The notes beneath the pieces are model-generated. The model did not search any database. It had not been told where the DNA came from and worked only from the letters and a program-made list of their open reading frames with translations. Below are positions 34,703 to 49,715 of a stretch of DNA of 64,000 nucleotides, piece by piece. Numbering within the stretch: position 1 is the first letter of the stretch; each line of letters opens with the position of its first letter. Source of the stretch: Flavobacterium dankookense (GTDB taxonomy: Bacteria; Bacteroidota; Bacteroidia; Flavobacteriales; Flavobacteriaceae); NCBI RefSeq assembly GCF_004362665.1, contig NZ_SNXR01000011.1, forward strand, positions 124,001 to 188,000, given 5' to 3'. Position numbers and translations under genes: made by a program.

Positions 34703-36043
34703 TTGAAAAATATCCTAATCATAGACGACGAAGAAAAACTTCGCGGACTTTTGGCTCGAATAGTAAAATCTGAAGGATTTGATGTCATTGAAGCACCCGA
34801 TTTAAAATCAGGTTTCAAAAAGTTGGAGCAAAATGATATTGACGTCGTTTTATGTGATGTCAAACTTCCCGATGGAAATGGTGTTGATTTTGTACAAAAA
34901 ATTAAAACAAGTTTTCCTCTAGTAGAAGTTATTTTGATGACTGCTTATGGCAATATTCCCGATGGCGTTCAAGCTATGAAAAATGGCGCTTTTGATTATA
35001 TTGTAAAAGGCGATGATAACGATAAAATCATTCCATTACTTTACAAAGCCTTTGATAAAGTACAATTACAAAAAAAAGTCAAACAACTCGAAAAACGTAT
35101 TTCGGATAAATATTCATTTGATACCATAATAGGAAAATCAAAAGCAATTGAACAAGTAATTGATTTGGCTAAAAAAGTAGCTAAAACCGATTCTACCGTA
35201 TTACTTACCGGTGAAACTGGAACCGGAAAAGAAGTTTTTGCGCAAGCCATTCACGAAAACAGTCATCGAGTTGGCAAATCTTTTGTAGCATTAAATTGCA
35301 GCACATTCAGCAAAGAGATTCTAGAAAGCGAATTATTTGGGCACAAACAAGGTGCTTTTACAGGAGCAATCAAAGACAAGAAAGGATTTATTGAAGAAGC
35401 AAACGGAGGAACATTGTTTTTGGATGAAATTGGAGAAATGCCTATAGAATTACAAGCTAAATTACTTCGAGTTCTAGAAACTAATGAGTTTATTCCCGTT
35501 GGAGATACCACTCCAAAAAAATCAAATTTCAGATTAATTGCGGCAACAAATCGTGATTTAAAAGTAGAAAGCGACGAACACCGTTTTCGTTCCGATTTAT
35601 ATTTTCGATTGAATATTTTTGAAATCAATATTCCGCCATTGCGAGAAAGAGTTAAGGATATTGCACCTTTAGTAGATTTTTTTGTAGATAAATTTTCTAC
35701 TTCAATAAATAAAAAAACATTGCAAATTCAAGATAATTTTCTTCACAAATTAGAAGCCTATCATTGGCCAGGAAACGTCAGAGAATTAAAAAATGTGATT
35801 GAAAGAGCCGTTATTTTAGCTAACAATGATGTGCTAACCCTTGATGTGTTGCCTTATGAAATAAAACATCAAAGCGATAATCAAAATAAATCAATGTCAG
35901 CATTTTCAATGAATAGTGTTGAAAAACTGCATATTCAAAAAGTACTAAATTATACTAAAGGTAATAAAGCAGAAACCGCAAGATTACTAGAAATAGGTAT
36001 TGCCACTTTATACAGAAAATTAGACGAATACAATATTCAATAG
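34703..36043 (+). CDS. Sigma-54-dependent response regulator (NtrC family)
   Basis: 446 residues from a TTG start. Receiver domain (1-120) with the phosphorylated Asp in VLCDVKLPDG (about 52). AAA+ domain with Walker A GETGTGKE (about 171-178), the sigma-54 contact loop GAFTGA and Walker B GGTLFLDEIGEM. C-terminal Fis-type HTH (NKAETARLLEIGIATLYRKL). It lies directly before the kdp genes, where other bacteria have KdpE, and sigma-54-like promoter sequences follow it. It probably activates kdp after phosphorylation by the kinase at 44295-46013. Confidence 0.93.
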   Translation: MKNILIIDDEEKLRGLLARIVKSEGFDVIEAPDLKSGFKKLEQNDIDVVLCDVKLPDGNGVDFVQKIKTSFPLVEVILMTAYGNIPDGVQAMKNGAFDYIVKGDDNDKIIPLLYKAFDKVQLQKKVKQLEKRISDKYSFDTIIGKSKAIEQVIDLAKKVAKTDSTVLLTGETGTGKEVFAQAIHENSHRVGKSFVALNCSTFSKEILESELFGHKQGAFTGAIKDKKGFIEEANGGTLFLDEIGEMPIELQAKLLRVLETNEFIPVGDTTPKKSNFRLIAATNRDLKVESDEHRFRSDLYFRLNIFEINIPPLRERVKDIAPLVDFFVDKFSTSINKKTLQIQDNFLHKLEAYHWPGNVRELKNVIERAVILANNDVLTLDVLPYEIKHQSDNQNKSMSAFSMNSVEKLHIQKVLNYTKGNKAETARLLEIGIATLYRKLDEYNIQ

Positions 36044-36063
36044 ACAACCTTATCATTTTAATA

Positions 36064-36091
36064 AAAGCCTATCATTTTGATAGGTTTTTTT
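36064..36091 (+). terminator. Terminator
   Basis: AAGCCTATCA-ttt-TGATAGGTTTTTTT, a short perfect stem with T-run, 20 bp after the sigma-54 regulator gene. Confidence 0.85.
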
Positions 36092-36102
36092 ATGCTCAAT
36101 TT

Positions 36103-36175
36103 TTGGCACGATAATCACAGAATCAACAATAACAATACCTTACGGAATTTTATTTTTATTGGAACACCTTTTGGC
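36103..36175 (+). promoter_or_regulatory. Candidate sigma-54 promoter region of the kdp operon
   Basis: TTGGCACG at 36103-36110 is a full -24 element, though its -12 part at 36115-36119 (TCACA) is poor. TTGGAACACCTTTTGGCA at 36159-36176 has TTGG-AC and TTGG at the -24/-12 distance with mismatches at the C positions. Both stand between a terminator and the first gene of the kdp operon, and an NtrC-type activator is encoded just upstream. Assignment is by pattern only. Confidence 0.45.
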
Positions 36176-36207
36176 ATAAGCGATGAAGAACAAACAAATT
36201 CATCGTT

Positions 36208-36489
36208 ATGAAAAACAAAATAAATACCATTTACAAACAAGCGGAACGCTTCGCAGAAATCACCAACAAAGCCATTATTTCTGGAAACATTTCTAGAGCA
36301 AAAAAACTATTGGCTGTTGCAGAAAATCTTTTGGAAACAGGCAGCAATGAAACTAAAAATGTAATCTCAAATGTTTATGTCTATTCCGTTTCTTCATTTA
36401 TGGAATTGAGACATTGCAGTATTTCCAATCTTTTTCCTAAAGCATTGCGAGCAGAATACATCAAGCAAATCAATGCAACTTCTGTATAA
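36208..36489 (+). CDS. Small conserved-type protein at the head of the kdp operon (DUF7674-like)
   Basis: 93 residues, soluble and helical. INTIYKQAERFAEITNK and RAKKLLAVAENLLETGSNETKNVISNVYVYSVSSFMELRHCSISNLFPKALRAEYIKQINAT read like the small proteins that accompany kdp operons in Bacteroidota (my recollection is DUF7674). Role unknown; the position suggests a link to potassium control. Confidence 0.7.
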   Translation: MKNKINTIYKQAERFAEITNKAIISGNISRAKKLLAVAENLLETGSNETKNVISNVYVYSVSSFMELRHCSISNLFPKALRAEYIKQINATSV

Positions 36490-36512
36490 TCCTAAACTAA
36501 TAAATTAACTAT

Positions 36513-36599
36513 ATGATAAGCACTATTCTTTTACTCGCATTAGGAATTTTTCTTTTTGCCATTTGTTTTAAATCGGTCGAATTTTTTGAAAAAATCTAA
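36513..36599 (+). CDS. 28-residue single-helix membrane peptide
   Basis: ATG at 36513 to TAA at 36599. It encodes MISTILLLALGIFLFAICFK followed by SVEFFEKI, that is one transmembrane helix plus a short charged tail. It lies 23 bp after the previous gene and three bases before kdpF. Its size and position suggest a second small Kdp accessory peptide. Too short to identify by family. Confidence 0.55.
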   Translation: MISTILLLALGIFLFAICFKSVEFFEKI

Positions 36600-36602
36600 A
36601 TT

Positions 36603-36680
36603 ATGATAGCACTTTTTATTGTCGCTTTAGCTGTATTTGGCTATTTGGTTTATGTCTTAATTAAACCCGAAAAATTTTAA
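36603..36680 (+). CDS. kdpF: Potassium-transporting ATPase subunit F
   Basis: 25 residues: one helix ending in YLVYVLIKPEKF, the KdpF pattern (Y-L-x-x-x-L-x-x-P-E-x-F). KdpF stabilises the KdpABC complex in the inner membrane. It is 22 bp before kdpA. Confidence 0.85.
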   Translation: MIALFIVALAVFGYLVYVLIKPEKF

Positions 36681-36702
36681 ACATTCTTTTAATAAATATA
36701 TT

Positions 36703-38424
36703 ATGAATACAGAAATTCTTGGAGTTATAACTGTTTTTCTTCTCACCATTGTTTTGGCAATCCCAATCGGGAAATATATTGCTAAAGTTTACACAGGAGA
36801 TAAAACACTTTTAGACCCAATTTTTAATCCTATTGAACGCCTAATTTTCAAAATAAGTGGTATCAATGACAAAGAAGAAATGAATTGGAAGCAACATCTT
36901 AAAGCACTTTTGAGTGTCAATTTGGGATGGTTTATTCTTTGTTTTTTTGTCTTACTTTTTCAAGGAAGCTTGCCTTTAAACCCAGATGGAAATCCATCAA
37001 TGAGTCCCGATTTAGCTTTTAATACCGCTATTTCATTTGTTGTCAATTGTAATCTTCAGCATTATTCCGGTGAGTCTGGTTTGTCTTATTTAGGGCAATT
37101 AATGTTGATGTTTTTACAGTTCGTTTCAGCAGGTGTTGGAATGGCAGCCGCAGCTATGGTTTTCAATGCCATGAAAGAGAGAACAACCGAACATTTGGGT
37201 AATTTCTATAATTATTTCATCAAAAGTTGTACTCGTATTTTATTACCTCTTTCAGCAATTGTTGCTCTCGTATTGATTTTCAGTGGAACACCAATGACAT
37301 TTGAAGGTAAAGATAGCATTACTACTTTACAAGGTGATACAGTTGAAGTATCTCGAGGTCCAGCTGCAGCTTTTATTGGTATTAAACATATAGGTACCAA
37401 TGGTGGTGGTTTCTTTGGAGTGAATTCAGCACATCCATTTGAAAATCCAACTTATTTTACTAATGCTGTTGAATTAGTTGCTCAATTGATTATTCCTTTT
37501 GCAATGATTTTTGCATTAGGATTTTATCTCAAAAAACGTAAATTTTCTCATGTCGTTTTTGGTGTAATGACTATCGGGTTTTTGCTTTTGGTCATTCCAA
37601 CAATTAGTTCCGAATTAAACGGAAATCCAGCTATTGAAAGAATGGGAATAACCCAAACTACTGGAGCAATGGAAGGTAAAGAAGTGCGATTTGGTCCAGC
37701 CATTTCAGGTTTTTGGAGTATTGCCACGACCGTAATTTCTACAGGTTCTGTGAATAGCATGCACGATAGTTCAATGCCAATGTCAGGAGCAATGCAATTG
37801 TTAGCTATGATGGTCAATGCTTTTTATGGCGGTTGCGGTGTTGGATGGTTGAATTTCTACATATTCATAATACTTGCTGTTTTCATTTCAGGATTAATGG
37901 TTGGTAGAACTCCAGAGTTTTTAGGGAAGAAAATCGAAGCTCGTGAAGTTAAAATCGCCGCATTTATTGCCATTCTTCATCCTTTATTAATTTTATCTGG
38001 AACTGCTTTAGCCTCATATTTAGCTGCCAATGATACTCCAATGGGATATTGGTTTAATGGAAATGCTACAAGTTGGTTAAACAATCCTGGTAATCATGGC
38101 TTTTCTGAAATGCTTTATGAGTTTACCTCAAGTGCTGCCAACAATGGTTCTGGTTTTGAAGGTTTAGGCGATAATAATCCGTTTTGGAATATCACAACCG
38201 GAATTGTGTTACTATTAGGTAGATTTCTCCCAATTATTGGACCGCTTGCCATCGCAGGATTATTAGCCAATAAAAAATACATTCCAGAAAGTGCAGGAAC
38301 TTTAAAAACGGATACTACCATTTTTGGTATTATGGTCTTTGCAGTAATCGCAATTATTGCAGCACTATCCTTCTTTCCAGCATTGGCTTTAGGTCCATTA
38401 GCAGAATATTTTACTTTGAGGTGA
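36703..38424 (+). CDS. kdpA: Potassium-transporting ATPase subunit A
   Basis: 573 residues, family length, about ten transmembrane helices. Selectivity-filter segments are visible: NCNLQHYSGES, GTNGGGFFGVNSAHPFEN, FYGGCGVGW and SSAANNGSGFEGL. It is the K+-channel-like subunit of the KdpFABC pump. The stop codon lies inside the first unit of a 7-bp-period hairpin. Confidence 0.97.
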   Translation: MNTEILGVITVFLLTIVLAIPIGKYIAKVYTGDKTLLDPIFNPIERLIFKISGINDKEEMNWKQHLKALLSVNLGWFILCFFVLLFQGSLPLNPDGNPSMSPDLAFNTAISFVVNCNLQHYSGESGLSYLGQLMLMFLQFVSAGVGMAAAAMVFNAMKERTTEHLGNFYNYFIKSCTRILLPLSAIVALVLIFSGTPMTFEGKDSITTLQGDTVEVSRGPAAAFIGIKHIGTNGGGFFGVNSAHPFENPTYFTNAVELVAQLIIPFAMIFALGFYLKKRKFSHVVFGVMTIGFLLLVIPTISSELNGNPAIERMGITQTTGAMEGKEVRFGPAISGFWSIATTVISTGSVNSMHDSSMPMSGAMQLLAMMVNAFYGGCGVGWLNFYIFIILAVFISGLMVGRTPEFLGKKIEAREVKIAAFIAILHPLLILSGTALASYLAANDTPMGYWFNGNATSWLNNPGNHGFSEMLYEFTSSAANNGSGFEGLGDNNPFWNITTGIVLLLGRFLPIIGPLAIAGLLANKKYIPESAGTLKTDTTIFGIMVFAVIAIIAALSFFPALALGPLAEYFTLR

Positions 38425-38537
38425 AATGCGAAATGTTAGATGTGAAATGTAAAATATGAGAAGTTAAATGAAAAAAAATAATAATCACTTTTCACTAGAA
38501 AAAACGAACCTTTTACTTCTAACATATCACATATCAC
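38421..38537 (+). repeat. 7-bp-period hairpin between kdpA and the antisense gene
   Basis: Left arm: seven heptamers in register from 38421 (GTGAAAT, GCGAAAT, GTTAGAT, GTGAAAT, GTAAAAT, ATGAGAA, GTTAAAT). Right arm 38503-38537 is the complement type (…TTCTAAC, ATATCAC, ATATCAC). The first 23 bases of the left arm and the last 23 of the right pair with five mismatches. It spans exactly from the kdpA stop to the stop of the convergent gene. Confidence 0.8.
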
Positions 38538-38893
38538 AATCTACTATCAAGGCTTTTTATCAAACCATAAATAAGTTTTCCTATGATGTCTAATTTTTCA
38601 ATTAATTGTTCACATTCTTTTTCGTTGATAAAATCTAATTCTTTACTCAATAAAATTAATGTATCAAGTTCAGATAAAGACCCTAGTGAAATATGCAAAA
38701 AATGGATAAATTCTTTTGTGCCTTTTCTAGCTGCTCCTTCGGCAATATTTACTGGAACTGAAACAGAAGCTCTTCTTATTTGGGAGGTTAATCCAAATTT
38801 TTCATCAGTCGGGAATCGGTTTGTAACTAAATATATTTCTTTAACAAATTCAAAACTTTTAATCCAAGAATTTAATTTTTTATGAGGTTTCAT
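38534..38893 (-). CDS. Four-helix-bundle protein (23S rRNA intervening-sequence family)
   Basis: 119 residues: KLNSWIKSFEFVKEIYLVTNRFP, then FGLTSQIRRASVSVPVNIAEGAARKG and FLHISLGSLSELDTLILLSKEL, the S23/IVP four-helix-bundle signature. Relatives are encoded in 23S rRNA intervening sequences or stand alone, and the fold is shared with Avd of diversity-generating retroelements. Here it is on the opposite strand between kdpA and kdpB, bracketed on both sides by 7-bp-period repeats. No reverse transcriptase or variable repeat is nearby. Confidence 0.92.
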   Translation of the reverse strand: MKPHKKLNSWIKSFEFVKEIYLVTNRFPTDEKFGLTSQIRRASVSVPVNIAEGAARKGTKEFIHFLHISLGSLSELDTLILLSKELDFINEKECEQLIEKLDIIGKLIYGLIKSLDSRL

Positions 38894-38940
38894 ATTTTAT
38901 AATAATTTAAATGAATATCAAACATATTCAAAATCATGAC

Positions 38941-38968
38941 ATTTTACATTTTACAAATAACATTTTAC
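38941..38968 (+). repeat. Four heptamer units before kdpB
   Basis: ATTTTAC, ATTTTAC, AAATAAC, ATTTTAC in exact 7-bp register, 11 bp before the kdpB ATG. These are reverse complements of the GTAAAAT-type units after kdpA, so the antisense four-helix-bundle gene sits between opposed repeats. Confidence 0.7.
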
Positions 38969-38979
38969 TTAATAAAAAA

Positions 38980-41052
38980 ATGACTAAAAATAAATCCAAT
39001 TCATTATTTGAAAGTAAGCAAGTAAAAGAAGCTTTAGTGCAATCTTTTGTAAAGCTTAATCCAAAAGTAATGTTCAAAAACCCAGTAATGTTTACTGTAG
39101 AAATTGGAACTGCCATTATGTTTATTGTGTGTATTGCCATTTTAATGGGCGCACAAAATCAAGGTAGTTTCATTTATAATTTCGTAGTATTCTTAATATT
39201 ATTTGTCACACTTTTGTTTGCCAATTTTGCTGAAGCTATAGCCGAAGCAAGAGGAAAAGCACAAGCCGATAGTTTAAGAAAAACAAGAGAAGAAACTCCA
39301 GCCAAAAAAGTTGTAGCAATTGGAAAAGTCAGTTCAAGTGAAATTGAATTGATTTCTTCATCTCAACTTAAAAAAGGAGATATGTTCTTTTGTGAAGCAG
39401 GTGATGTTATCCCAACCGATGGCGAAATTATTGAAGGTTTAGCCACTATTGATGAAAGTGCAATCACAGGAGAAAGCGCACCAGTTATTCGTGAAGCTGG
39501 TGGTGATAAAAGTTCGGTGACTGGTGGAACAAAAGTGTTAAGTGATAGAATAACCGTAAAAGTAACAACCGAACCCGGAGAAAGCTTTCTTGACAAAATG
39601 ATTGCTTTAGTAGAAGGTGCAAGTCGTCAAAAAACACCCAATGAAATTGCGTTAACTATTTTATTAGCAGCCTTTACTTTAATCTTTGTAATCGTTTGTG
39701 TAACACTAAAACCTTTTGCAGATTATGCTAATGCACCGATAACAATCGCTGCTTTTATCTCACTTTTTGTTTGTTTAATACCAACAACAATTGGAGGATT
39801 GTTATCAGCCATTGGAATTGCAGGAATGGATAGAGCTTTAAGAGCTAACGTAATCACAAAATCAGGTAAAGCCGTTGAAACAGCAGGCGATATTGATGTT
39901 TTATTGTTAGATAAAACAGGTACAATCACTATCGGAAATAGAAAAGCAACTAATTTTTATCCAACAAATGGTGTTTCGCTTGAAGAATTTATTCAATCTG
40001 CTGTTTTAAGTTCTCTAGCAGATGACACTCCAGAAGGAAAAAGTATTCTTGAGTTAAGTGAAATGTTAGATGTAAATGGTGAAATGAAAACAAGCATCTC
40101 ACATCTCACATCTCACATCTCACAAACAATAAAATTCACAGCTGAAACGAGAACTTCGGGAGTAGTTTTAAAAGATGGAACTAACATTAGAAAAGGTGCT
40201 CAAGATGCTGCCAAAAACATTTCGGAACAAGCAGGATATACATTCCCTGAAGATACAGCTAAAAAAGTCATTGAAATTTCTTCCAATGGTGGAACGCCTT
40301 TAGTAGTAATTAAAAACAGTCAAGTTCAAGGTGTAGTGGAATTGCAAGACATTATCAAAACAGGAATGAAAGAACGTTTTGATCGTTTGAGAAAAATGGG
40401 TGTAAAAACGGTTATGGTTACAGGAGATAATCCACTAACAGCCAAATTCATTGCAGAAAAAGCAGGTGTAGACGATTTTATCGCAGAAGCCAAACCTGAG
40501 GACAAAATGAACTACATCAAAAATGAGCAACAAAACGGAAAATTAGTCGCCATGATGGGTGACGGAACCAATGATGCTCCTGCTTTAGCGCAAGCCGATG
40601 TAGGTGTAGCCATGAATAGTGGAACGCAAGCCGCTAAAGAAGCAGGAAATATGGTGGATTTAGACAATGATCCAACCAAATTAATTGAAATAGTAGAAAT
40701 TGGAAAACAACTTTTAATGACAAGAGGAACGCTAACTACATTCTCAATTGCTAATGATGTTGCCAAATATTTTGCCATTGTTCCAGCGCTATTTATAGCT
40801 TCAATTCCAGCGCTTCAAGGATTGAATATTATGCAATTGCATAGTCCTGAAAGTGCCATTTTATCAGCAGTAATTTTTAATGCAATCATAATTCCAATAC
40901 TAATTCCGTTGGCACTACGAGGTGTGGATTACAAACCAATTGGAGCAAGCGCCATTCTAAAAAGAAACCTTTTAATTTATGGATTAGGTGGAATTATTAT
41001 CCCATTTATTGGTATCAAATTAATTGATTTAGTAGTAGCAATGTTCTTTTAA
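38980..41052 (+). CDS. kdpB: Potassium-transporting ATPase subunit B
   Basis: 690 residues from ATG 38980; an in-frame ATG at 38911 would add translated repeat DNA and is rejected. P-type ATPase landmarks: TGESAPV, phosphorylation site DKTGT (Asp about 311), and [19 protein letters not shown]. It hydrolyses ATP to drive K+ uptake through KdpA. Residues about 360-381 in the nucleotide-binding domain are encoded by the same 7-bp repeat that fills the operon's spacers; the frame is kept. Confidence 0.97.
40058..40123 (+). repeat. 7-bp-period repeat inside the kdpB coding sequence
   Basis: Units GTGAAAT, GTTAGAT, GTAAATG, GTGAAAT (40058-40085), then four perfect ATCTCAC heptamers (40096-40123) of the complementary type. 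The unit vocabulary is identical to the spacer repeats at 38421, 38941 and 41057. It encodes roughly [20 protein letters not shown] between the conserved TPEGKSI and FTAETR blocks. Confidence 0.85.
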
Positions 41053-41056
41053 TTAT

Positions 41057-41150
41057 GTAAAAAGTAAAAAGTAAAAATTAAAAAGTAAAATTTATTAAGT
41101 TATTCAATATTTTACATCTCACAACTCACAACTCACTTTTCACATCTAAC
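41057..41150 (+). repeat. 7-bp-period hairpin between kdpB and kdpC
   Basis: Left arm GTAAAAA x3, TTAAAAA, GTAAAAT (41057-41091). Right arm ATTTTAC, ATCTCAC, AACTCAC, AACTCAC, TTTTCAC, ATCTAAC (41109-41150), all in strict 7-bp register. It begins four bases after the kdpB stop and ends ten bases before the kdpC ATG. Confidence 0.8.
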
Positions 41151-41160
41151 AAATAAAAAA

Positions 41161-41715
41161 ATGAAAAATACAATAGCAATAATTAAATTCACAGCATTAA
41201 TAGTAATTTTGTTTGCAGTAATCTATCCTTTAGCCATGTTAGGAATAGCGCAATTGGCACCAAATAAAGGTAAAGGCGAAACCATTTCGGTAAACGGTAG
41301 AGTAGTTGGTTATCAAAAAATAGGTCAAAAATTTGATAAAGCAAACTATTTTTGGGGAAGACCATCAGCCGTAGATTACAATGCTGCTGGAAGTGGAGGA
41401 AGTAATAAAGGTGCAAGTAATGAAGATTATTTGGCACAAGTTCAGAAACGAATTGATACTTTTCTACTAGTTCATCCTTATTTGAAAAAAGCGGACATTC
41501 CATCTGACATGGTTACAGCTTCAGGTAGTGGTTTGGATCCAAATATTTCGCCACAAGGCGCTTTAATTCAAGTGAAAAGAATAGCAGCTACTAGAAAATT
41601 ACCTGAAGAAAAAGTAAAATCTTTGGTAGAAAAAATGAGTAACAAACCAACAGCTATAGGAACCGAAACAATTAATGTTTTAGAATTGAATATAGCTTTA
41701 GATGACTTGAAGTAA
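41161..41715 (+). CDS. kdpC: Potassium-transporting ATPase subunit C
   Basis: 184 residues with one N-terminal transmembrane helix (IIKFTALIVILFAVIYPLAML). The family core is present: KANYFWGRPSAVDYNAAGSGGSN, ASGSGLDPNISPQGALIQVKRIA and the final INVLELNIALDDL. It is the periplasmic-facing subunit of the pump. The 21-bp tandem array starts eight bases after its stop. Confidence 0.96.
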   Translation: MKNTIAIIKFTALIVILFAVIYPLAMLGIAQLAPNKGKGETISVNGRVVGYQKIGQKFDKANYFWGRPSAVDYNAAGSGGSNKGASNEDYLAQVQKRIDTFLLVHPYLKKADIPSDMVTASGSGLDPNISPQGALIQVKRIAATRKLPEEKVKSLVEKMSNKPTAIGTETINVLELNIALDDLK

Positions 41716-41722
41716 TAATTAA

Positions 41723-41974
41723 TAAGCAAAACTCGATTTGGTTTAAGCAAAACTCAATTAGTAATAAGCAAAACTCGATTTGGTTTAAACAAAACTCAAT
41801 TAGTAATAAGCAAAACTCGATTAGGTTTAAGCAAAACTCGATTAGGTTTAAACAAAACTCAATTAGTATTAAGCAAAACTCGATTAGGTTTAAACAAAAC
41901 TCGATTAGGTTTAAACAAAACTCAATTAGTAGTAAGCATAACTCGATTTGGTTTAAACAAAACTCAATTAGTAA
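41723..41974 (+). repeat. 21-bp tandem array, twelve copies
   Basis: Twelve units of exactly 21 bp, all beginning TAA(G/A)CA(A/T)AACTC. Two unit types alternate: type A ends CGATTTGGTT or CGATTAGGTT, type B ends CAATTAGTA plus A, T or G. The order is A B A B A A B A A B A B. A thirteenth unit is started (TAAG at 41975). The array fills the kdpC-porin spacer and ends 25 bp before the porin ATG. Confidence 0.92.
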
Positions 41975-41999
41975 TAAGTAAAATAAAAATAATAAAAAA

Positions 42000-43070
42000 A
42001 TGAAAAAAATAATAGCTTTACTAGCTTTAACCTTTACAACAGTTTACGCTCAAGAGAAAGAAAAAAGTCCTCTAACTTTTTCAGGATATATAGAAACCTA
42101 TTATAGTTATGATTTCGGAAATCCTGATAATCATTTGCGACCAGGATTTATATACAGCCATAATAAGCACAACGAGTTAAACCTTAATTTAGGTTTTGCA
42201 AAAGTAAATTATGCCAAAGATAATGTTAGAGGAAACTTGGCACTTATGGCTGGAACGTATGCCGAATACAATTTGGCAGCCGAACAAGATTTATTGCGTA
42301 ATGTTTTTGAAGCCAATGTAGGAGTTAAAATTTCCTCAAAACATAATTTATGGATTGATGCAGGAATTATGCCTTCGCATATTGGTTTTGAAAGTGCTAT
42401 TGGAAAAGATTGTCAAACATTAACAAGAAGCATTTTAGCTGATAACTCTCCTTATTATGAAGCAGGAGTAAAAATCGGTTATACTTCTTCATCCGAAAAA
42501 TGGTATTTAGCTGCCATGTATTTAAACGGTTGGCAACGTATTCAAAAAATAGATTGTAATCAAACACCTGCTTTTGGAACGCAAATAACGTATAAACCAT
42601 CTGGTAAAATAACATGGAATTGGAGTACATACATTGGAAACGAGCAACCGGATAGTGATAGAAAATGGCGTTATTTCAATAATTTTTATGGACAATTTAA
42701 AGTTTCTGATAAAACCAATGTAACTGCTGGTTTTGATATTGGAGCGCAACAAACTGCAAACGGAAGTAGCGATTATGATGTTTGGTATTCGCCAGTTGTA
42801 ATTGTGCAATACAAACCAACTGCTAAAATTCAATTGGCAGCAAGAGGTGAATATTATCAAGACAAACAAGGTGTAATTATTGCAACGGGAAACGAAAACG
42901 GATTTAAAACCTATGGATTTTCAGCCAACTTTGATTATCTAGTTTCAGATAATGTGATGTTTAGAGTTGAAGCTAGAAATTTATCAAGTAAAGATGATAT
43001 CTTTTTGAAAGATGGAAACCCGACGGATAGCAATACTTTTTTGACAACTTCATTGGCTATTTCGTTTTAA
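42000..43070 (+). CDS. Outer-membrane porin, BBP2/OmpL-like
   Basis: 356 residues with signal peptide MKKIIALLALTFTTVYAQ. An alternating beta-barrel pattern follows: LTFSGYIETYYSYDFG, NLNLGFAKVNYA, LWIDAGIMPSHIGFESAIG, MYLNGWQRI and the C-terminal strand TFLTTSLAISF ending in Phe. It matches the putative beta-barrel porin-2 family. Its place between kdpC and kdpD suggests a route for K+ through the outer membrane. Confidence 0.85.
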   Translation: MKKIIALLALTFTTVYAQEKEKSPLTFSGYIETYYSYDFGNPDNHLRPGFIYSHNKHNELNLNLGFAKVNYAKDNVRGNLALMAGTYAEYNLAAEQDLLRNVFEANVGVKISSKHNLWIDAGIMPSHIGFESAIGKDCQTLTRSILADNSPYYEAGVKIGYTSSSEKWYLAAMYLNGWQRIQKIDCNQTPAFGTQITYKPSGKITWNWSTYIGNEQPDSDRKWRYFNNFYGQFKVSDKTNVTAGFDIGAQQTANGSSDYDVWYSPVVIVQYKPTAKIQLAARGEYYQDKQGVIIATGNENGFKTYGFSANFDYLVSDNVMFRVEARNLSSKDDIFLKDGNPTDSNTFLTTSLAISF

Positions 43071-43090
43071 ACTACTATAAACTGCATATT

Positions 43091-43132
43091 GTATTATTGT
43101 ATATTGATTTTCAGATTAGTATACAATAATAC
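43091..43132 (+). repeat. Perfect 13-bp inverted repeat between porin and kdpD
   Basis: GTATTATTGTATA at 43091-43103 and its exact reverse complement at 43120-43132. Further TGTATAC/ATTGTAT-like heptamers lie on both sides, down to 43154. There is no T-run, so a simple terminator is unlikely. It is the same kind of short-period hairpin as the other kdp spacers but with a different unit. Confidence 0.7.
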
Positions 43133-43167
43133 AGTATACAACAATACAATTTACAAATCCTAAAATC

Positions 43168-44295
43168 ATGGATGCTGAAAAAGAAAAAAGTGTAAAGCAT
43201 TTTTTAGATTTAATTCAAAAATCGAGAAAAGGAAAATTCAAAATCTACATCGGAATGAGTGCTGGCGTGGGCAAAACATTTCGTATGCTACAAGAAGCAC
43301 ATACACTTTTGAAGAAAGGCATTGATGTTAAGATTGGTTATATTGAAACGCACAATCGCAAAGAAACCCACGAGTTATTAGCCGGACTTCCTGTTATTCC
43401 GCGAAGAACTATTTTCTATAAAGGAAAAGAATTGGAAGAAATGGACGTGCAAGCTATAATCAATCTACGACCAGAAATTGTAATTGTAGATGAATTGGCA
43501 CACACCAATATTGAAGGAAGCAAAAATGAAAAGCGTTGGCAAGATGTATTAGAAATTTTAGAAGCTGGTATCAATGTAATTTCGGCGGTAAATATCCAAC
43601 ATATTGAAAGTTTAAATCAAAATGTAAAACAAATTACCAATGTTGATGTACAAGAACGAGTTCCAGATAATGTTTTAAGACTAGCAGACGAAGTAGTAAA
43701 TATTGACTTAACTTCAGATGAATTGATTTCCAGATTAAAAGAAGGAAAGATTTATACGGAAGACAAAATACAAGCAGCGTTAAACAATTTTTTTAAATCA
43801 GATCAAATTCTACAATTGCGCGAATTGGCTTTGAAAGAAGTTGCCAGTCAAGTAGTTCGAAAGGTAGAAAATGAAGTCCCAAAAAATGTAGCGTTACGAC
43901 ACGAAAAGCTTTTAGCTTGTATCAGTAGTAATGATAAAACTGCCAAAATAATAATCAGAAAAACGGCTCGTTTAGCTAGTTATTATAACAGTGATTGGTA
44001 TGTTTTGTATGTTGAAACTCCCAAAGAAAGTAGCGATAAAATTGCTTTAGACAAACAACGTCATTTGATAAATAATTTCAAGTTAGCCACCGAACTTGGT
44101 GCAGAAATTATCAAAGTTGAAAACGCAAAAATAACCGATGCCATTTTAGACGTTGTAGAACAAAAAAAAATAACAACCGTTTGTATTGGAAAACCTCACT
44201 TAAATTTATTTAAAGTAATTTTGTCTACCAGTATATTCAATAAATTATTGAATAGTTTATCATCTTCAAATATTGACCTAGTAATTCTTTCCTGA
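43168..44295 (+). CDS. kdpD: KdpD N-terminal sensor protein (stand-alone)
   Basis: 375 residues: the KdpD domain (about 20-230) with Walker A GMSAGVGKTFRML and VIVDELAHTN, followed by a universal-stress-type domain (about 245-375, LLACISSNDKTAKIIIRKTARLA). Transmembrane and kinase parts of the full-length enzyme are missing. They are supplied by the next gene, whose ATG overlaps this stop codon (TGATG). A split KdpD is common in Bacteroidota. The USP-like domain may bind nucleotides such as c-di-AMP, by analogy only. Confidence 0.93.
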   Translation: MDAEKEKSVKHFLDLIQKSRKGKFKIYIGMSAGVGKTFRMLQEAHTLLKKGIDVKIGYIETHNRKETHELLAGLPVIPRRTIFYKGKELEEMDVQAIINLRPEIVIVDELAHTNIEGSKNEKRWQDVLEILEAGINVISAVNIQHIESLNQNVKQITNVDVQERVPDNVLRLADEVVNIDLTSDELISRLKEGKIYTEDKIQAALNNFFKSDQILQLRELALKEVASQVVRKVENEVPKNVALRHEKLLACISSNDKTAKIIIRKTARLASYYNSDWYVLYVETPKESSDKIALDKQRHLINNFKLATELGAEIIKVENAKITDAILDVVEQKKITTVCIGKPHLNLFKVILSTSIFNKLLNSLSSSNIDLVILS

Positions 44296-46013
44296 TGAGA
44301 ATAAAAACCAAATTAAATTTAGGCGTTGGATTGTTATTTGTTTTAATAATTGTCCTTTCATTAGTGAGTGCCTTTTATATTTATTCGATAAAAAAAGATA
44401 CTCAAAATATTCTTAAAGCCAATTATGAAACTTTAGAATATTCTCGAAATATGCTTTCTTCATTAGATGAAATTGAAGTTAATGAAACGAAAGCGATTGT
44501 GTTATTTGAAACCAATTTAAAAAAACAAATAGCAAATATTTCAGAAGTTGGAGAAGATAAAGTTACTTATGATTTACAAAGGAAATTCCAAATTTTAGAG
44601 CAAGATAGAAACAATGCTACTTTAAAATCTCAAATTAGAAATGACATCTTTGAGATTATGAAACTCAACATGAATGCCATAAAAGTGAAAGGTGATATTG
44701 CAAAGAAAACGGCAGAAACGGCTAATTTATGGATTGCAATTGTTGGTTCATTATGTTTCTTAATTGCATTTAATTTGTTGGTTAATTTGCCCAATAATAT
44801 TGCCAATCCAATCAAAGAATTAACCGCTAGTATCAAAGAAATTGCCAATAGAAATTACTCAGAACGCGTTCATTTTCATAATCATAACGAATATGGAGAT
44901 TTGGCAAAATCGTTCAATACAATGGCTGAAAAATTAGAAGAATACTCCAATAGTAATTTGCATAAACTGACTTTTGAAAAGAAACGATTGGAAACGTTAA
45001 TCAATAATATGCACGATCCAATAATTGGTTTGGATAGTGAAGGAATAATTCTGTTTGTTAACGATGAAGCATTAAAGATTATTGGTCTTCGACAAGAAGA
45101 AGTTATAGGTCAATCGGCTACAACATTAGCATTGAAAAACGATTTGATGAGGTCATTAATCATCAACGAATTGGAAAGTTCAAAAGCACATCCAATGAAA
45201 ATTTTCGCTGACGGTAAAGAAAGTTATTTTGAAAAAGAAACTGTAAATATTACCATTACACCAACAGGTGAAGACAAATCAATTGATATAGGTAATGTAA
45301 TTATTTTGCGAAACATTACTATTTTCAAAGAATTAGATTTTGCTAAAACCAATTTTATTGCAACAGTTTCACACGAATTAAAAACTCCAATTTCTTCAAT
45401 AAAATTAAGTTTACAATTATTAGAAAAATCGGAAACAGGAACTATAAACGATGAACAAAAACAGCTAATTGAGAGTATAAAAGAGGATAGTGAACGGTTA
45501 TTAAAGATCACAGGAGAATTGCTTGATATTTCACAATTAGAAACAGGAAACATTCATCTAAACATCGAAAAAAGTAATCCGTATGATATTGTCAACTATG
45601 CTGTAGATGCTGTTAAAGTTCAAGCAGAGCAAAAGCAAATAGAGCTAATTATTGATTTAGAAAAAGAGTTACCAGAAGTGAAAGCAGATAGCGAAAAAAC
45701 AGGTTGGGTTTTAATTAATTTTTTAACAAACGCCATCACATATTCCTCAAGTCAAAGTAAAATTATTGTCAAATTAAAGAAAGAAAACAATCAAGTTGTA
45801 TTTCAAGTTATCGATTATGGAAAAGGAATTGACAAACGATATCAATCGAAAGTTTTTGATAAATATTTTCAAATTCCAGGAAGTAACAAATCGGGAACAG
45901 GATTGGGTTTAGCAATTTCTAAAGAGTTTATTGAAGCACAAAACGGTACCATTTCGGTAGAAAGTGAATTAGGTTTAGGAAGTACTTTTAGTATTGGATT
46001 GAATTGGGTTTAA
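44295..46013 (+). CDS. Membrane sensor histidine kinase of the kdp locus
   Basis: 572 residues. Two transmembrane helices (about 8-27 and 148-168) enclose a periplasmic helical sensor domain. Then HAMP (NPIKELTASIKEIANRNY), PAS (about 235-345), HisKA with SHELKTPISS (His about 360) and HATPase with GKGIDKRYQ and GTGLGLAISK. Translationally coupled to kdpD, so the two proteins probably act as one sensor. The likely partner is the NtrC-type regulator at 34703, since no KdpE-type regulator is present. Confidence 0.93.
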   Translation: MRIKTKLNLGVGLLFVLIIVLSLVSAFYIYSIKKDTQNILKANYETLEYSRNMLSSLDEIEVNETKAIVLFETNLKKQIANISEVGEDKVTYDLQRKFQILEQDRNNATLKSQIRNDIFEIMKLNMNAIKVKGDIAKKTAETANLWIAIVGSLCFLIAFNLLVNLPNNIANPIKELTASIKEIANRNYSERVHFHNHNEYGDLAKSFNTMAEKLEEYSNSNLHKLTFEKKRLETLINNMHDPIIGLDSEGIILFVNDEALKIIGLRQEEVIGQSATTLALKNDLMRSLIINELESSKAHPMKIFADGKESYFEKETVNITITPTGEDKSIDIGNVIILRNITIFKELDFAKTNFIATVSHELKTPISSIKLSLQLLEKSETGTINDEQKQLIESIKEDSERLLKITGELLDISQLETGNIHLNIEKSNPYDIVNYAVDAVKVQAEQKQIELIIDLEKELPEVKADSEKTGWVLINFLTNAITYSSSQSKIIVKLKKENNQVVFQVIDYGKGIDKRYQSKVFDKYFQIPGSNKSGTGLGLAISKEFIEAQNGTISVESELGLGSTFSIGLNWV

Positions 46014-46022
46014 TATTTAAAA

Positions 46023-46030
46023 TATATTTG
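46023..46030 (+). promoter_or_regulatory. -7 box before the DUF389 gene
   Basis: TATATTTG matches TAnnTTTG, with a TTG 16 bp upstream. It would give the DUF389 gene its own promoter. Confidence 0.4.
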
Positions 46031-46090
46031 TCCAGTCTTGTAATGCTTTAAGTATTAATTCTAATTTAGCATCGCAATCAATACTGAAAA

Positions 46091-47152
46091 ATGAGTACAA
46101 ATACTAAAGTCATAAAACGTTATTTTCGTTCTCTTTTTGATTTAAAAGGAAGTCAAGAAGATGAAACCATTACGGATAAAGAAGTACACGAAGGTGTTAT
46201 TTTTAAAGGTAAAAATCTTTGGCTTCTAGCGTTTGCAATATTTATTTCCTGCATTGGTTTGAATATTAATTCAAAAGCAGCTGTTATTGGTGCAATGATA
46301 ATCTCGCCATTAATGGGACCAATTTTTGGAATAGGTTTTTCCCTCGGAGTTTCCGATTTAGATTTATTGAAAGTTAGTATTCAAAACGCAGTTAGAATTA
46401 TTTTAATAAGTCTTTTAGTAGCAACAATTTATTACTTAATTACGCCTTATGCTATTCCAACCGATGAATTATTGTCATTCTCGCATCCAACTATTTTTGA
46501 TGTTTTATTAGCATTTCTTGGTGGAATGGCTGGTTTTATAGCAATTTCTCGTCATAACGGAACGCAGGTTTTAATTGGTGTTGCTGTTGCTACTTCGTGT
46601 ATTCCACCATTGTGTACAGCAAGTTTTGGATTGGCAACGTTGCAATGGGAATACTTTGTTGGCGGACTTTATACTTATTTTATAAACGCACTTTTTATTT
46701 GCGTTGGAAGTTACATCATTGTCAAGTATTTGAAGTTTAAACCACATTCTTCTGATAATGTAAAAAATGTAAACAGTTGGTTTGGAATATTGATATTTCT
46801 CGCCATAATTCCAGCGGTATATTTAGCTTATAATTTTGCTGTCGCAAATATTTTTACTGCAAAAGCCAATCAATTTGTTACCAATGAAATAGATGCTAAA
46901 TACCATGTTGTTCAAACAAAAATTGATGATAAATCCAAACTAATTGAGGTTGACGTAATGGTTGAACAATATGATGAATTGCTTCAAAACGTAGTTGAAA
47001 AAAAACTTAAGAACTACGGAATACAAAACGCAAAGCTTAAAATTTATCAATCCATTGAAGCAAGAAAAACCAATAGAGAAGAATTTGATAAATTAAATTC
47101 TGAAATCGAATTATTGAAAAAAGAGATTAAAGAGTTGAAAGTTAGTAAGTAA
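46091..47152 (+). CDS. DUF389 (TIGR00341-type) membrane protein
   Basis: 353 residues. Six or so helices with NSKAAVIGAMIISPLMGPIFGIGFSLG, FLGGMAGFIAISRHNGTQVLIGVAVATSCIPPLCTASFGLA and YFINALFICVGSYIIV, all hallmarks of DUF389. A C-terminal soluble domain with a coiled coil (about 255-353) follows. Function unknown. Confidence 0.9.
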   Translation: MSTNTKVIKRYFRSLFDLKGSQEDETITDKEVHEGVIFKGKNLWLLAFAIFISCIGLNINSKAAVIGAMIISPLMGPIFGIGFSLGVSDLDLLKVSIQNAVRIILISLLVATIYYLITPYAIPTDELLSFSHPTIFDVLLAFLGGMAGFIAISRHNGTQVLIGVAVATSCIPPLCTASFGLATLQWEYFVGGLYTYFINALFICVGSYIIVKYLKFKPHSSDNVKNVNSWFGILIFLAIIPAVYLAYNFAVANIFTAKANQFVTNEIDAKYHVVQTKIDDKSKLIEVDVMVEQYDELLQNVVEKKLKNYGIQNAKLKIYQSIEARKTNREEFDKLNSEIELLKKEIKELKVSK

Positions 47153-49390: not shown

Positions 49391-49425
49391 TATTTTTTCT
49401 TTTGTTGTTATCTATTGGCGGATGC

Positions 49426-49698
49426 CTTGTTTATTTGAGCCAAAGGCTTGTTTACTTTAGCTAGTGTCTTGTTTACTTTGGCCGGTGTCTTGTTTATTTG
49501 AGCCAAAGGCTTGTTCACTTTGGCCAGTGTCTTGTTTACTTTGGCCGTTGTCTTGTTTATTTTGGCGGATGCCTTGTTTATTTTGGCGGAAGCCTTGTTC
49601 ACTTTGGCGGAAGCCTTGTTTAGTTTGGCGGAAGCCTTGTTCACTTTGGCGGAAGCCTTGTTTAGTTTGGCGGATGTCTTGTTTACTTTGGCGGATGC
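49426..49698 (+). repeat. 21-bp tandem array, thirteen copies
   Basis: Thirteen units of exactly 21 bp, each beginning CTTGTT(T/C)A, for example CTTGTTTACTTTGGCGGATG plus C. Two outlying units (1 and 4) read CTTGTTTATTTGAGCCAAAG plus G. On the minus strand the units would encode heptads of the form NK-x-SAK-(V/L/I), open for 106 codons, but only from a TTG start and with no other coding evidence. The array fills most of the 548 bp between sdaA and the cassette array. Confidence 0.92.
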
Positions 49699-49715
49699 CT
49701 TGTTTATCTTTTGAA

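Follow-up and report, generated by a model that had tools for sequence, protein, structure and literature searches.

Repeat-armed hairpins in the kdp operon of Flavobacterium dankookense as candidate relatives of rRNA intervening sequences

In the 23S rRNA genes of Coxiella and Leptospira, intervening sequences (IVSs) are formed by an inverted-repeat stem that holds a gene for the S23p protein in its loop (PMC4990558), an organization resembling that of the repeat elements analyzed here in the kdp operon of Flavobacterium dankookense, within a stretch of 64,000 nucleotides hereafter called the window (contig NZ_SNXR01000011.1, positions 124,001 to 188,000 of the forward strand; coordinates are those of the window). 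The passages of that source on the Coxiella element report its excision by RNase III and, in its 5' region, tandem heptamers (GACAGAT) with a copy number varying by strain, another feature that recalls the heptamers of the window; they describe the role of the element as unclear (PMC4990558). Unlike the 23S rRNA IVSs, the Flavobacterium elements lie in spacers between protein genes and once, without the gene for the intervening-sequence protein (IVP, or S23p), in a coding sequence. They also differ in that both arms are built of repeats, in their several arm families, several copies per genome and solo forms, and their excision by RNase III is a prediction. None of the window copies is located in a 23S rRNA gene, the S23p gene is found in the loop in the window and in relatives, and the stem is found for the class. 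The best reading is that these hairpins are mRNA-borne relatives of the rRNA IVSs.

Other described systems share part of this organization. The P6b region of the Nostoc tRNA-Leu(UAA) group I intron is a stem of 7-nt repeats belonging to two alternative motif classes, which are swapped over the whole region with a similar fold and change in length by whole units (PMC4476775). It differs in its location within the self-splicing intron of one gene, in cyanobacteria, and the passages on P6b mention no IVP gene (PMC4476775). The TAACTGA repeats of Beggiatoaceae, cyanobacteria and some Bacteroidetes (MacGregor 2015) are likewise intergenic heptamers, many of them near start codons, and other heptamer repeats were also noted in Bacteroidetes spacers (PMC4679880). 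Unlike the present arrays, they consist of a single fixed word in direct repeats (one indirect), and no IVP gene is mentioned in the parts of the article devoted to them (PMC4679880). The window words are of the GTGAAAT type with a complementary second arm, hence they are not tandem direct TAACTGA. Repetitive extragenic palindromic (REP) sequences have a conserved short palindrome, whereas several words, unrelated to one another, are tandemly repeated in the Flavobacterium arms. The likeness to REPs lies in their being intergenic palindromes. Two Flavobacterium genomes are named in a table of a source on REPs (PMC12306157). In the openly licensed PMC literature we found no published account of mRNA spacers in which repeat arms surround an IVP gene, which is a weak absence, nor any account of the present element among heptamer repeats or REPs in Flavobacterium.

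Judging from their anatomy, the heptamer spacers of the kdp operon very probably belong to a class of intercistronic hairpins with repeat-built arms, distributed in Flavobacterium and, on a smaller sample, in the wider Bacteroidota. An earlier sequence-only reading of the window had reported that the kdp spacers contain heptamers in phase, set in opposed arms; that finding is real and larger than first stated. IVP genes are widespread in Bacteroidota and, if most of them lie in the loops of repeat-built hairpins between genes, as they do in the present sample, this would place the family in a defined RNA context and make its function directly testable in a laboratory Flavobacterium. Moreover, the three scattered observations of heptamers at stems, in the Coxiella IVS, the Nostoc P6b region and Bacteroidetes spacers, would be joined in one testable class.

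Heptamer arrays of the kdp operon and their spread

A cyclic 7-state scan recovered seven heptamer arrays in the window, all located within 38418-41151 (Table 1); 20 dinucleotide-shuffled versions of the window yielded no array. They correspond to three pairs of left and right arms and one lone right arm (38939-38968). The period persisted under autocorrelation: the self-match at lag 7 ranges from 0.59 to 1.0, every one of the seven arrays has its optimum at lag 7 or 14, and P values (maximum over lags) extend from 0 of 1000 shuffles up to 0.033. The common vocabulary and the fixed register initially claimed are also borne out, since the kdp spacers have words in common and the 7-nt register is held along each array, with substitutions. 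The arms were said to begin at a stop codon and to end before the next start, which agrees with the position of the kdpA TGA in the first unit and with the right arms preceding kdpB and kdpC, which stop about 10 nt short of the ATG. The best longest frame of kdpB starts at 38911, and the start common to relatives is at 38980. The spacers first listed are real, but their list overlooked the pair internal to kdpB (40058-40124) and an IVP gene (38534-38893). The boundaries between units in the left arms (38421-38475 and the others) are often ATGTGA or ATGTAA, in which a stop codon comes immediately after a start codon; GTTAGAT units differ.

The predicted RNA fold of the hairpin at 38418-38540 reaches -25.8 kcal/mol (z -5.3 against shuffles) and that of the kdpB-internal pair is also strong (z -4.8). 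The pair between kdpB and kdpC folds weakly (z -1.3), 27 of 200 shuffles being equally stable. Six Rfam matches were obtained over 36000-46500, none reaching the gathering score.

Of 150 genus genomes, 57 contain kdpB, counting that of F. dankookense, and the operons of the best-matching 40 of the 56 relatives were fetched, giving 41 operons with that of the window. Arrays of the GTGAAAT family, single weak ones counted, occur in 30 of these 40 relatives and recur before kdpA, between kdpA and kdpB, within kdpB, between kdpB and kdpC, between the porin gene and kdpD, and between kdpD and the kinase gene. At least one opposed arm pair is present in 20 of the 41 operons; these contain 49 adjacent opposed arrays, each with the forward arm in the leading position, the reverse order never being observed. 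A right arm stands directly before kdpB in 10 operons, five of them without IVP; among these five is the closest relative (kdpB 94% identical), in which it is the only array at that place. In the porin-kdpD spacer of the window, a TATTGTATTATTGTATA-type hairpin was seen at 43083-43156, and GTGAAAT hairpins are located at the same junction in four relatives.

Short spacers in relatives had been named as a result that would speak against the earlier claim; the kdpA-kdpB spacer is indeed of at most 18 nt in 16 of the 41 operons, the others having longer spacers or inserts of several kinds. Unit number and words change fast among kdp spacers. The kdpB match is 2055-2103 nt long in the 17 operons with an internal array versus 1998-2058 nt in the 24 without, two ranges that overlap. 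Among the operons listed, examination by eye revealed other hairpin families at the same junctions, with CTAAG-type 8-mers, a CCTGACAGG palindrome or ACAGATTAAAAGG-type hairpins, suggesting that the hairpin is more constant than its sequence; in one of them (L082) the kdpD-kinase junction holds an apparent heptamer remnant followed by a different family.

In the 3.2-Mb genome of F. dankookense, a three-unit pattern with at most 2 mismatches gave 8 matches, all at kdp, as were the seven heptamer arrays scanned in 400 kb of this genome. With at most 1 mismatch the pattern is present in 31 of the 150 genus genomes, for a reversed-pattern control that is mostly 0 and at maximum 8 (G054). This distribution, together with the recurrence of arrays at equivalent kdp junctions across many species, favors a repeat element over random drift, as the sequence-only reading had stated. 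The genome-wide search that it called for places the word family at kdp only in this genome, but heptamers are not special to kdp as regards the class, which includes several arm families with periods of 7 and 8. A scan of the genome contig collection with a pattern of two units per arm retrieved 22 contig stretches, 13 from Flavobacterium and 4 from other Bacteroidota (Dyadobacter 2, Cytophagaceae 1, Chitinophagaceae 1). Five more (L192, L198, L202, L203 and L204) are labelled Oscillospiraceae, Ruminococcaceae or Anaerolineae, for which horizontal spread, independent origin or contamination are possible. One stretch (L018, from genome G017) displays several arrays over about 2 kb in a single direction, of GTGAGTT/GTGAATC/GTGAGAA-type heptamers and with no opposed arms.

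Spacers were surveyed over 400 kb each of the F. dankookense genome and of genome G060, a stem being counted when its score was at least 14 and above all 12 shuffles. Stems were found, in these two genomes respectively, in 37/156 and 31/157 co-directional, 10/25 and 13/36 convergent, and 5/42 and 7/48 divergent spacers. Those with an equal period in both arms numbered 11 and 6 in co-directional, 2 and 0 in convergent, and 0 and 0 in divergent spacers; the kdpA-IVP hairpin accounts for one of the two convergent cases. Autocorrelation peaks at lag 7 in co-directional spacers (z 7.4 and 7.7), with values of 1.6 and -0.4 in divergent and 1.8 and 0.6 in convergent ones. A significant local period of 7 was detected in 16/148 and 10/155 co-directional spacers, and a period of 8 in 5 and 5.

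IVP genes enclosed by inverted repeats

The kdpA-kdpB stretch (38421-38968) is more than a plain spacer, since it holds an intact IVP gene on the minus strand. Its product matches TIGR02436 (E 3.7e-37, 126.9 bits for a cut-off of 24) and PF05635 (E 2e-37, 128 bits for 33.8), and has a relative of solved structure (2gsc, E 1.2e-26). PF05635 is reported to resemble Avd in sequence and structure (PMC10053308). The window IVP is not an Avd (NF033474, 36.1 bits for a cut-off of 80), and Avd of the diversity-generating retroelements is only its remote homologue. In the near right arm, the outermost unit contains the IVP stop, a TGA of the minus strand (38534-38536). The first hairpin (38421-38537) therefore lies between two convergent stops, those of kdpA and IVP, each TGA being inside an outermost arm heptamer. 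The left arm at 38421 pairs with the far right arm with a score of 18.4 and with the near one with a score of 16.8. An antisense IVP occupies the same kdpA-kdpB site in four of the 40 relatives (L080, L081, L091 and L092).

The association of IVP genes with inverted repeats was evaluated on 39 loci from 13 genus genomes, nine from F. dankookense and 30 of the 93 matches in 12 relatives chosen for their heptamer hits. A locus was considered enclosed when the pairing of its 120-nt flanks exceeded all ten shuffles by more than 2, and 301 other genes of 80-250 aa from two of the same genomes, leaving out genes at 400 nt or less from a known IVP, served as a control. An inverted repeat encloses 31 of the 39 loci (7 of the 9 in F. 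dankookense) versus 7 of the 301 control genes, and its arms are degenerate 7-8-mers. Because 11 of the 30 loci of relatives correspond to one orthologous junction, the count was also made by distinct junction, 14 of 18 having a majority of enclosed loci. In a phylum sample (28 loci fetched, 3 dropped for want of a clean open frame; 6 shuffles and 140-nt flanks; control genes in the genus set only), 14 of the 25 scored loci are enclosed, with a left-arm period of 7 in 8 and of 8 in 3 of them. Of the genomes searched, 114 of 148 in the phylum and 146 of 150 in the genus possess the IVP family.

Both neighbours are co-directional with the IVP in 34 of the 39 loci, against 158 of the 301 control genes (91/156 and 67/145). 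Among the 27 co-directional loci with a pairing score of at least 17, 22 have a left arm that begins at most 10 nt from the upstream stop, and 20 a right arm whose end falls in the interval from 13 nt before the start codon to 8 nt past it. Solo hairpins with arms of the same kinds and no IVP gene were also found in spacers.

The turnover of these elements was followed at one junction, using the 30 best-matching loci of the 100 genomes with a match (101 searched). An IVP cassette occupies 23 of them, and by majority of units the left and right arms belong to one subfamily in all 23 cassettes (CTRAG in 12, CARAG in 11; three left arms are mixed). The arm type follows the IVP type, identity to one reference IVP being at least 69% for one arm type and at most 64% for the other; the subfamily split may reflect a single historical event, so that the 23 cassettes are not 23 independent events. 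Own arms pair with a score of 21.96 versus 15.76 for swapped arms, and 0 of 5000 permutations, which ignore relatedness, were as high. Own arms also surpass swapped ones within each subfamily (P 0.033 and 0.0024, with the same permutation). This concerted change of the arms makes a copying or conversion process possible in IVP cassettes. The 11-locus IVP set A of the arm-swap test largely coincides with loci among these 23. The IVP frame is open in all 23 cassettes and the median dN/dS is 0.15 (135 of 253 pairs, pS below 0.6), indicating that IVP is under purifying selection at this junction. Of the seven loci without IVP, six bear another stem scoring above 20 shuffles, one barely.

Proposed processing and alternative explanations

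We consider evenly balanced the chance that the whole mechanism outlined here holds, namely that these elements are IVS-like intercistronic hairpins, cut by RNase III and with IVP as an optional cargo. In each element, degenerate 7- or 8-mers in tandem make up a left arm near the upstream stop, and its complement, the right arm, stands near the next start; the loop between them is either short, as in solo hairpins, or holds the IVP/S23p gene. In the polycistronic RNA the arms would most likely form a double-stranded stem, whose cutting by RNase III would set the loop free, with the IVP message where present, and split the flanking cistrons into separate mRNAs, of which the downstream one would carry a short A-rich leader. 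Gain and loss of whole units, followed by re-pairing in a shifted register, would allow the stem to outlast the fast turnover of its sequence, and whole elements take each other's place at a junction. The anatomy, the enclosure of IVP genes in the sample, the position at stop and start codons, the turnover of families, the agreement of the two arms and, at one junction, the purifying selection on IVP are read from the genome sequences, while we infer the cutting by RNase III, the freeing of the cistrons, whatever the IVP protein may do and how the elements spread. A broader proposal, which we put forward only tentatively and think rather doubtful, starts from a large, still unnamed class of intercistronic RNA hairpins in Bacteroidota, either selfish or domesticated, in which IVP/S23p would be the cargo and ensure maintenance or mobility; the rRNA IVSs would be one special habitat of this class. 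The IVP, a pentameric four-helix-bundle barrel and remote Avd relative, might then recognise or help to write its cognate 7-8-nt arms, and solo hairpins such as those of kdp would be non-coding derivatives.

Several observations weigh against the reading of the hairpins as RNase III-cut relatives of IVSs. At the window locus itself, the enclosure of IVP by an inverted repeat falls just under the threshold (19.4 for a required 17.6+2), IVP is antisense to kdp, so that its message would be absent from the kdp transcript, and the hairpin internal to kdpB is hard to square with a useful cutting. Eight of the 39 IVP loci of the genus set are likewise below the enclosure threshold, and in Coxiella S23p is thought not to be made (PMC4990558). 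As for the pairing of arms, in 49 GTGAAAT-family kdp hairpins the own right arm scores 13.0 and swapped ones 13.5 (P 0.92), with no arm-specific covariation, and at the kdpD-kinase junction (n=7; L079, L080, L081, L084, L092, L096 and L106) the hairpin's own arm is a poorer partner than a swapped one (13.0 versus 16.4), as if perfect stems were avoided. The permutation that separates own from swapped arms in the 23 cassettes ignores relatedness, and three smaller IVP locus sets gave P values of 0.04 (B), 0.25 (C) and 0.33 (D). Over 989 non-orthologous IVP pairs, arm similarity does not track IVP identity (rho 0.04, P 0.31). In the spacer survey, stems of any kind are commoner in convergent than in co-directional spacers, and solo stems periodic in both arms show no clear deficit in convergent (2/61) relative to co-directional spacers (17/313; divergent 0/90). 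Lastly, a contrast that favors the reading, a period of 7 or 8 in 0 of 92 co-directional spacers of five IVP-lacking genomes versus 9 of 102 in seven genomes with IVP (Fisher P 0.0036), is small, confounded with lineage and GC, and reduced within the F. dankookense family to 0/39 versus 2/42.

Among other explanations, we hold it unlikely that the elements are mobile DNA palindromes of the REP kind or of the kind of miniature inverted-repeat transposable elements, moved by a transposase or by IVP and landing at gene boundaries, with RNA structure as a by-product. The presence of one word family at many loci and in many species would fit such mobility, as would the occupation of one junction by different families in different species. 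It would also agree with three IVPs of F. dankookense that have AATTA-type arms at three junctions and are mutual nearest relatives (58-70% identity, the next best being at most 34% among the 64 compared). Against it, the arm families have by eye no apparent common terminal sequence beyond the period, and no general linkage joins IVP and arms.

An active copying of one arm into the other, in which template switching at the hairpin would make the first arm the template of the second, as the sequence-only reading had suggested, appears quite improbable. It would explain why words and register are common to both arms, the single subfamily of both arms of IVP cassettes and the advantage of matched over swapped arms within subfamilies. 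For the GTGAAAT family, to which the suggestion applied, it finds no support, the own partner being no better than a swapped one in the 49 kdp hairpins; moreover, the perfect right arm in kdpB (CATCTCA x4.3) has no equally perfect left counterpart.

We see little chance that the arrays are neutral junk, grown by slippage wherever spacer constraint is weak. The fast variation in the number and words of units, the lack of covariation in the GTGAAAT family and the copy inside kdpB, where length varies, would all suit such drift. However, slippage yields direct repeats and not complementary arms in a fixed order, the lag-7 excess is clear in co-directional spacers only, the arms are located at stop and start codons, IVP is under purifying selection, and periodic spacers are absent from the IVP-lacking sample. 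Finally, intrinsic terminators or attenuators, which the position of hairpins after stop codons, that of 38421-38537 between two convergent stops and the overall abundance of stems in convergent spacers might evoke, are very improbable, since on the plus strand, the only one read, A-rich leaders (TTAATAAAAAAATG / AATAAAAAAATG) and no T-run follow the right arms preceding kdpB and kdpC, one hairpin is inside kdpB, and IVP cassettes stand between co-directional genes.

Features of the window and longer repeat units

Table 1. Genes and heptamer arms of the kdp region (window coordinates)
Feature	Position	Strand	Details
kdpA	36703..38424	+	TIGR00680, E 5e-183; stop TGA (38422-38424) inside first heptamer GTGAAAT
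Left heptamer arm (GTGAAAT GCGAAAT GTTAGAT GTGAAAT GTAAAAT ...)	38421..38475		Array 38418-38475, score 39.4; self-match at lag 14/7 0.68/0.65
Near right arm, complement orientation, holding the antisense IVP stop codon	38508..38538		Array score 19.9
IVP/S23p gene, 119 aa, four helix bundle / 23S rRNA intervening-sequence protein family, antisense to kdp	38534..38893	-	TIGR02436, PF05635
Far right arm, directly before kdpB; encloses the IVP gene with the left arm at 38421	38939..38968		Array score 20.7
kdpB	38980..41052	+	TIGR01497, E 0
Left heptamer arm within the kdpB coding sequence; frame stays open	40058..40086		Array score 22.6
Right heptamer arm within kdpB, CATCTCA x4.3, perfect	40095..40124		Array score 32.7; TRF score 60
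Left heptamer arm, kdpB-kdpC spacer	41055..41091		Array score 19.3
Right heptamer arm, kdpB-kdpC spacer	41109..41151		Array score 35.6
kdpC	41161..41715	+	NF010606, E 6e-89

Downstream of these features, the spacer between kdpC and the porin gene (41720-41983) is filled by about 12 tandem 21-bp units of the TAAGCAAAACTCGATTAGGTT type, 21 being 3 x 7. Other long arrays of units of about 21 bp, with different words, are located in spacers at 49415-49711 of the window and, on contig C1 of the same genome, near 285572 and 383675.

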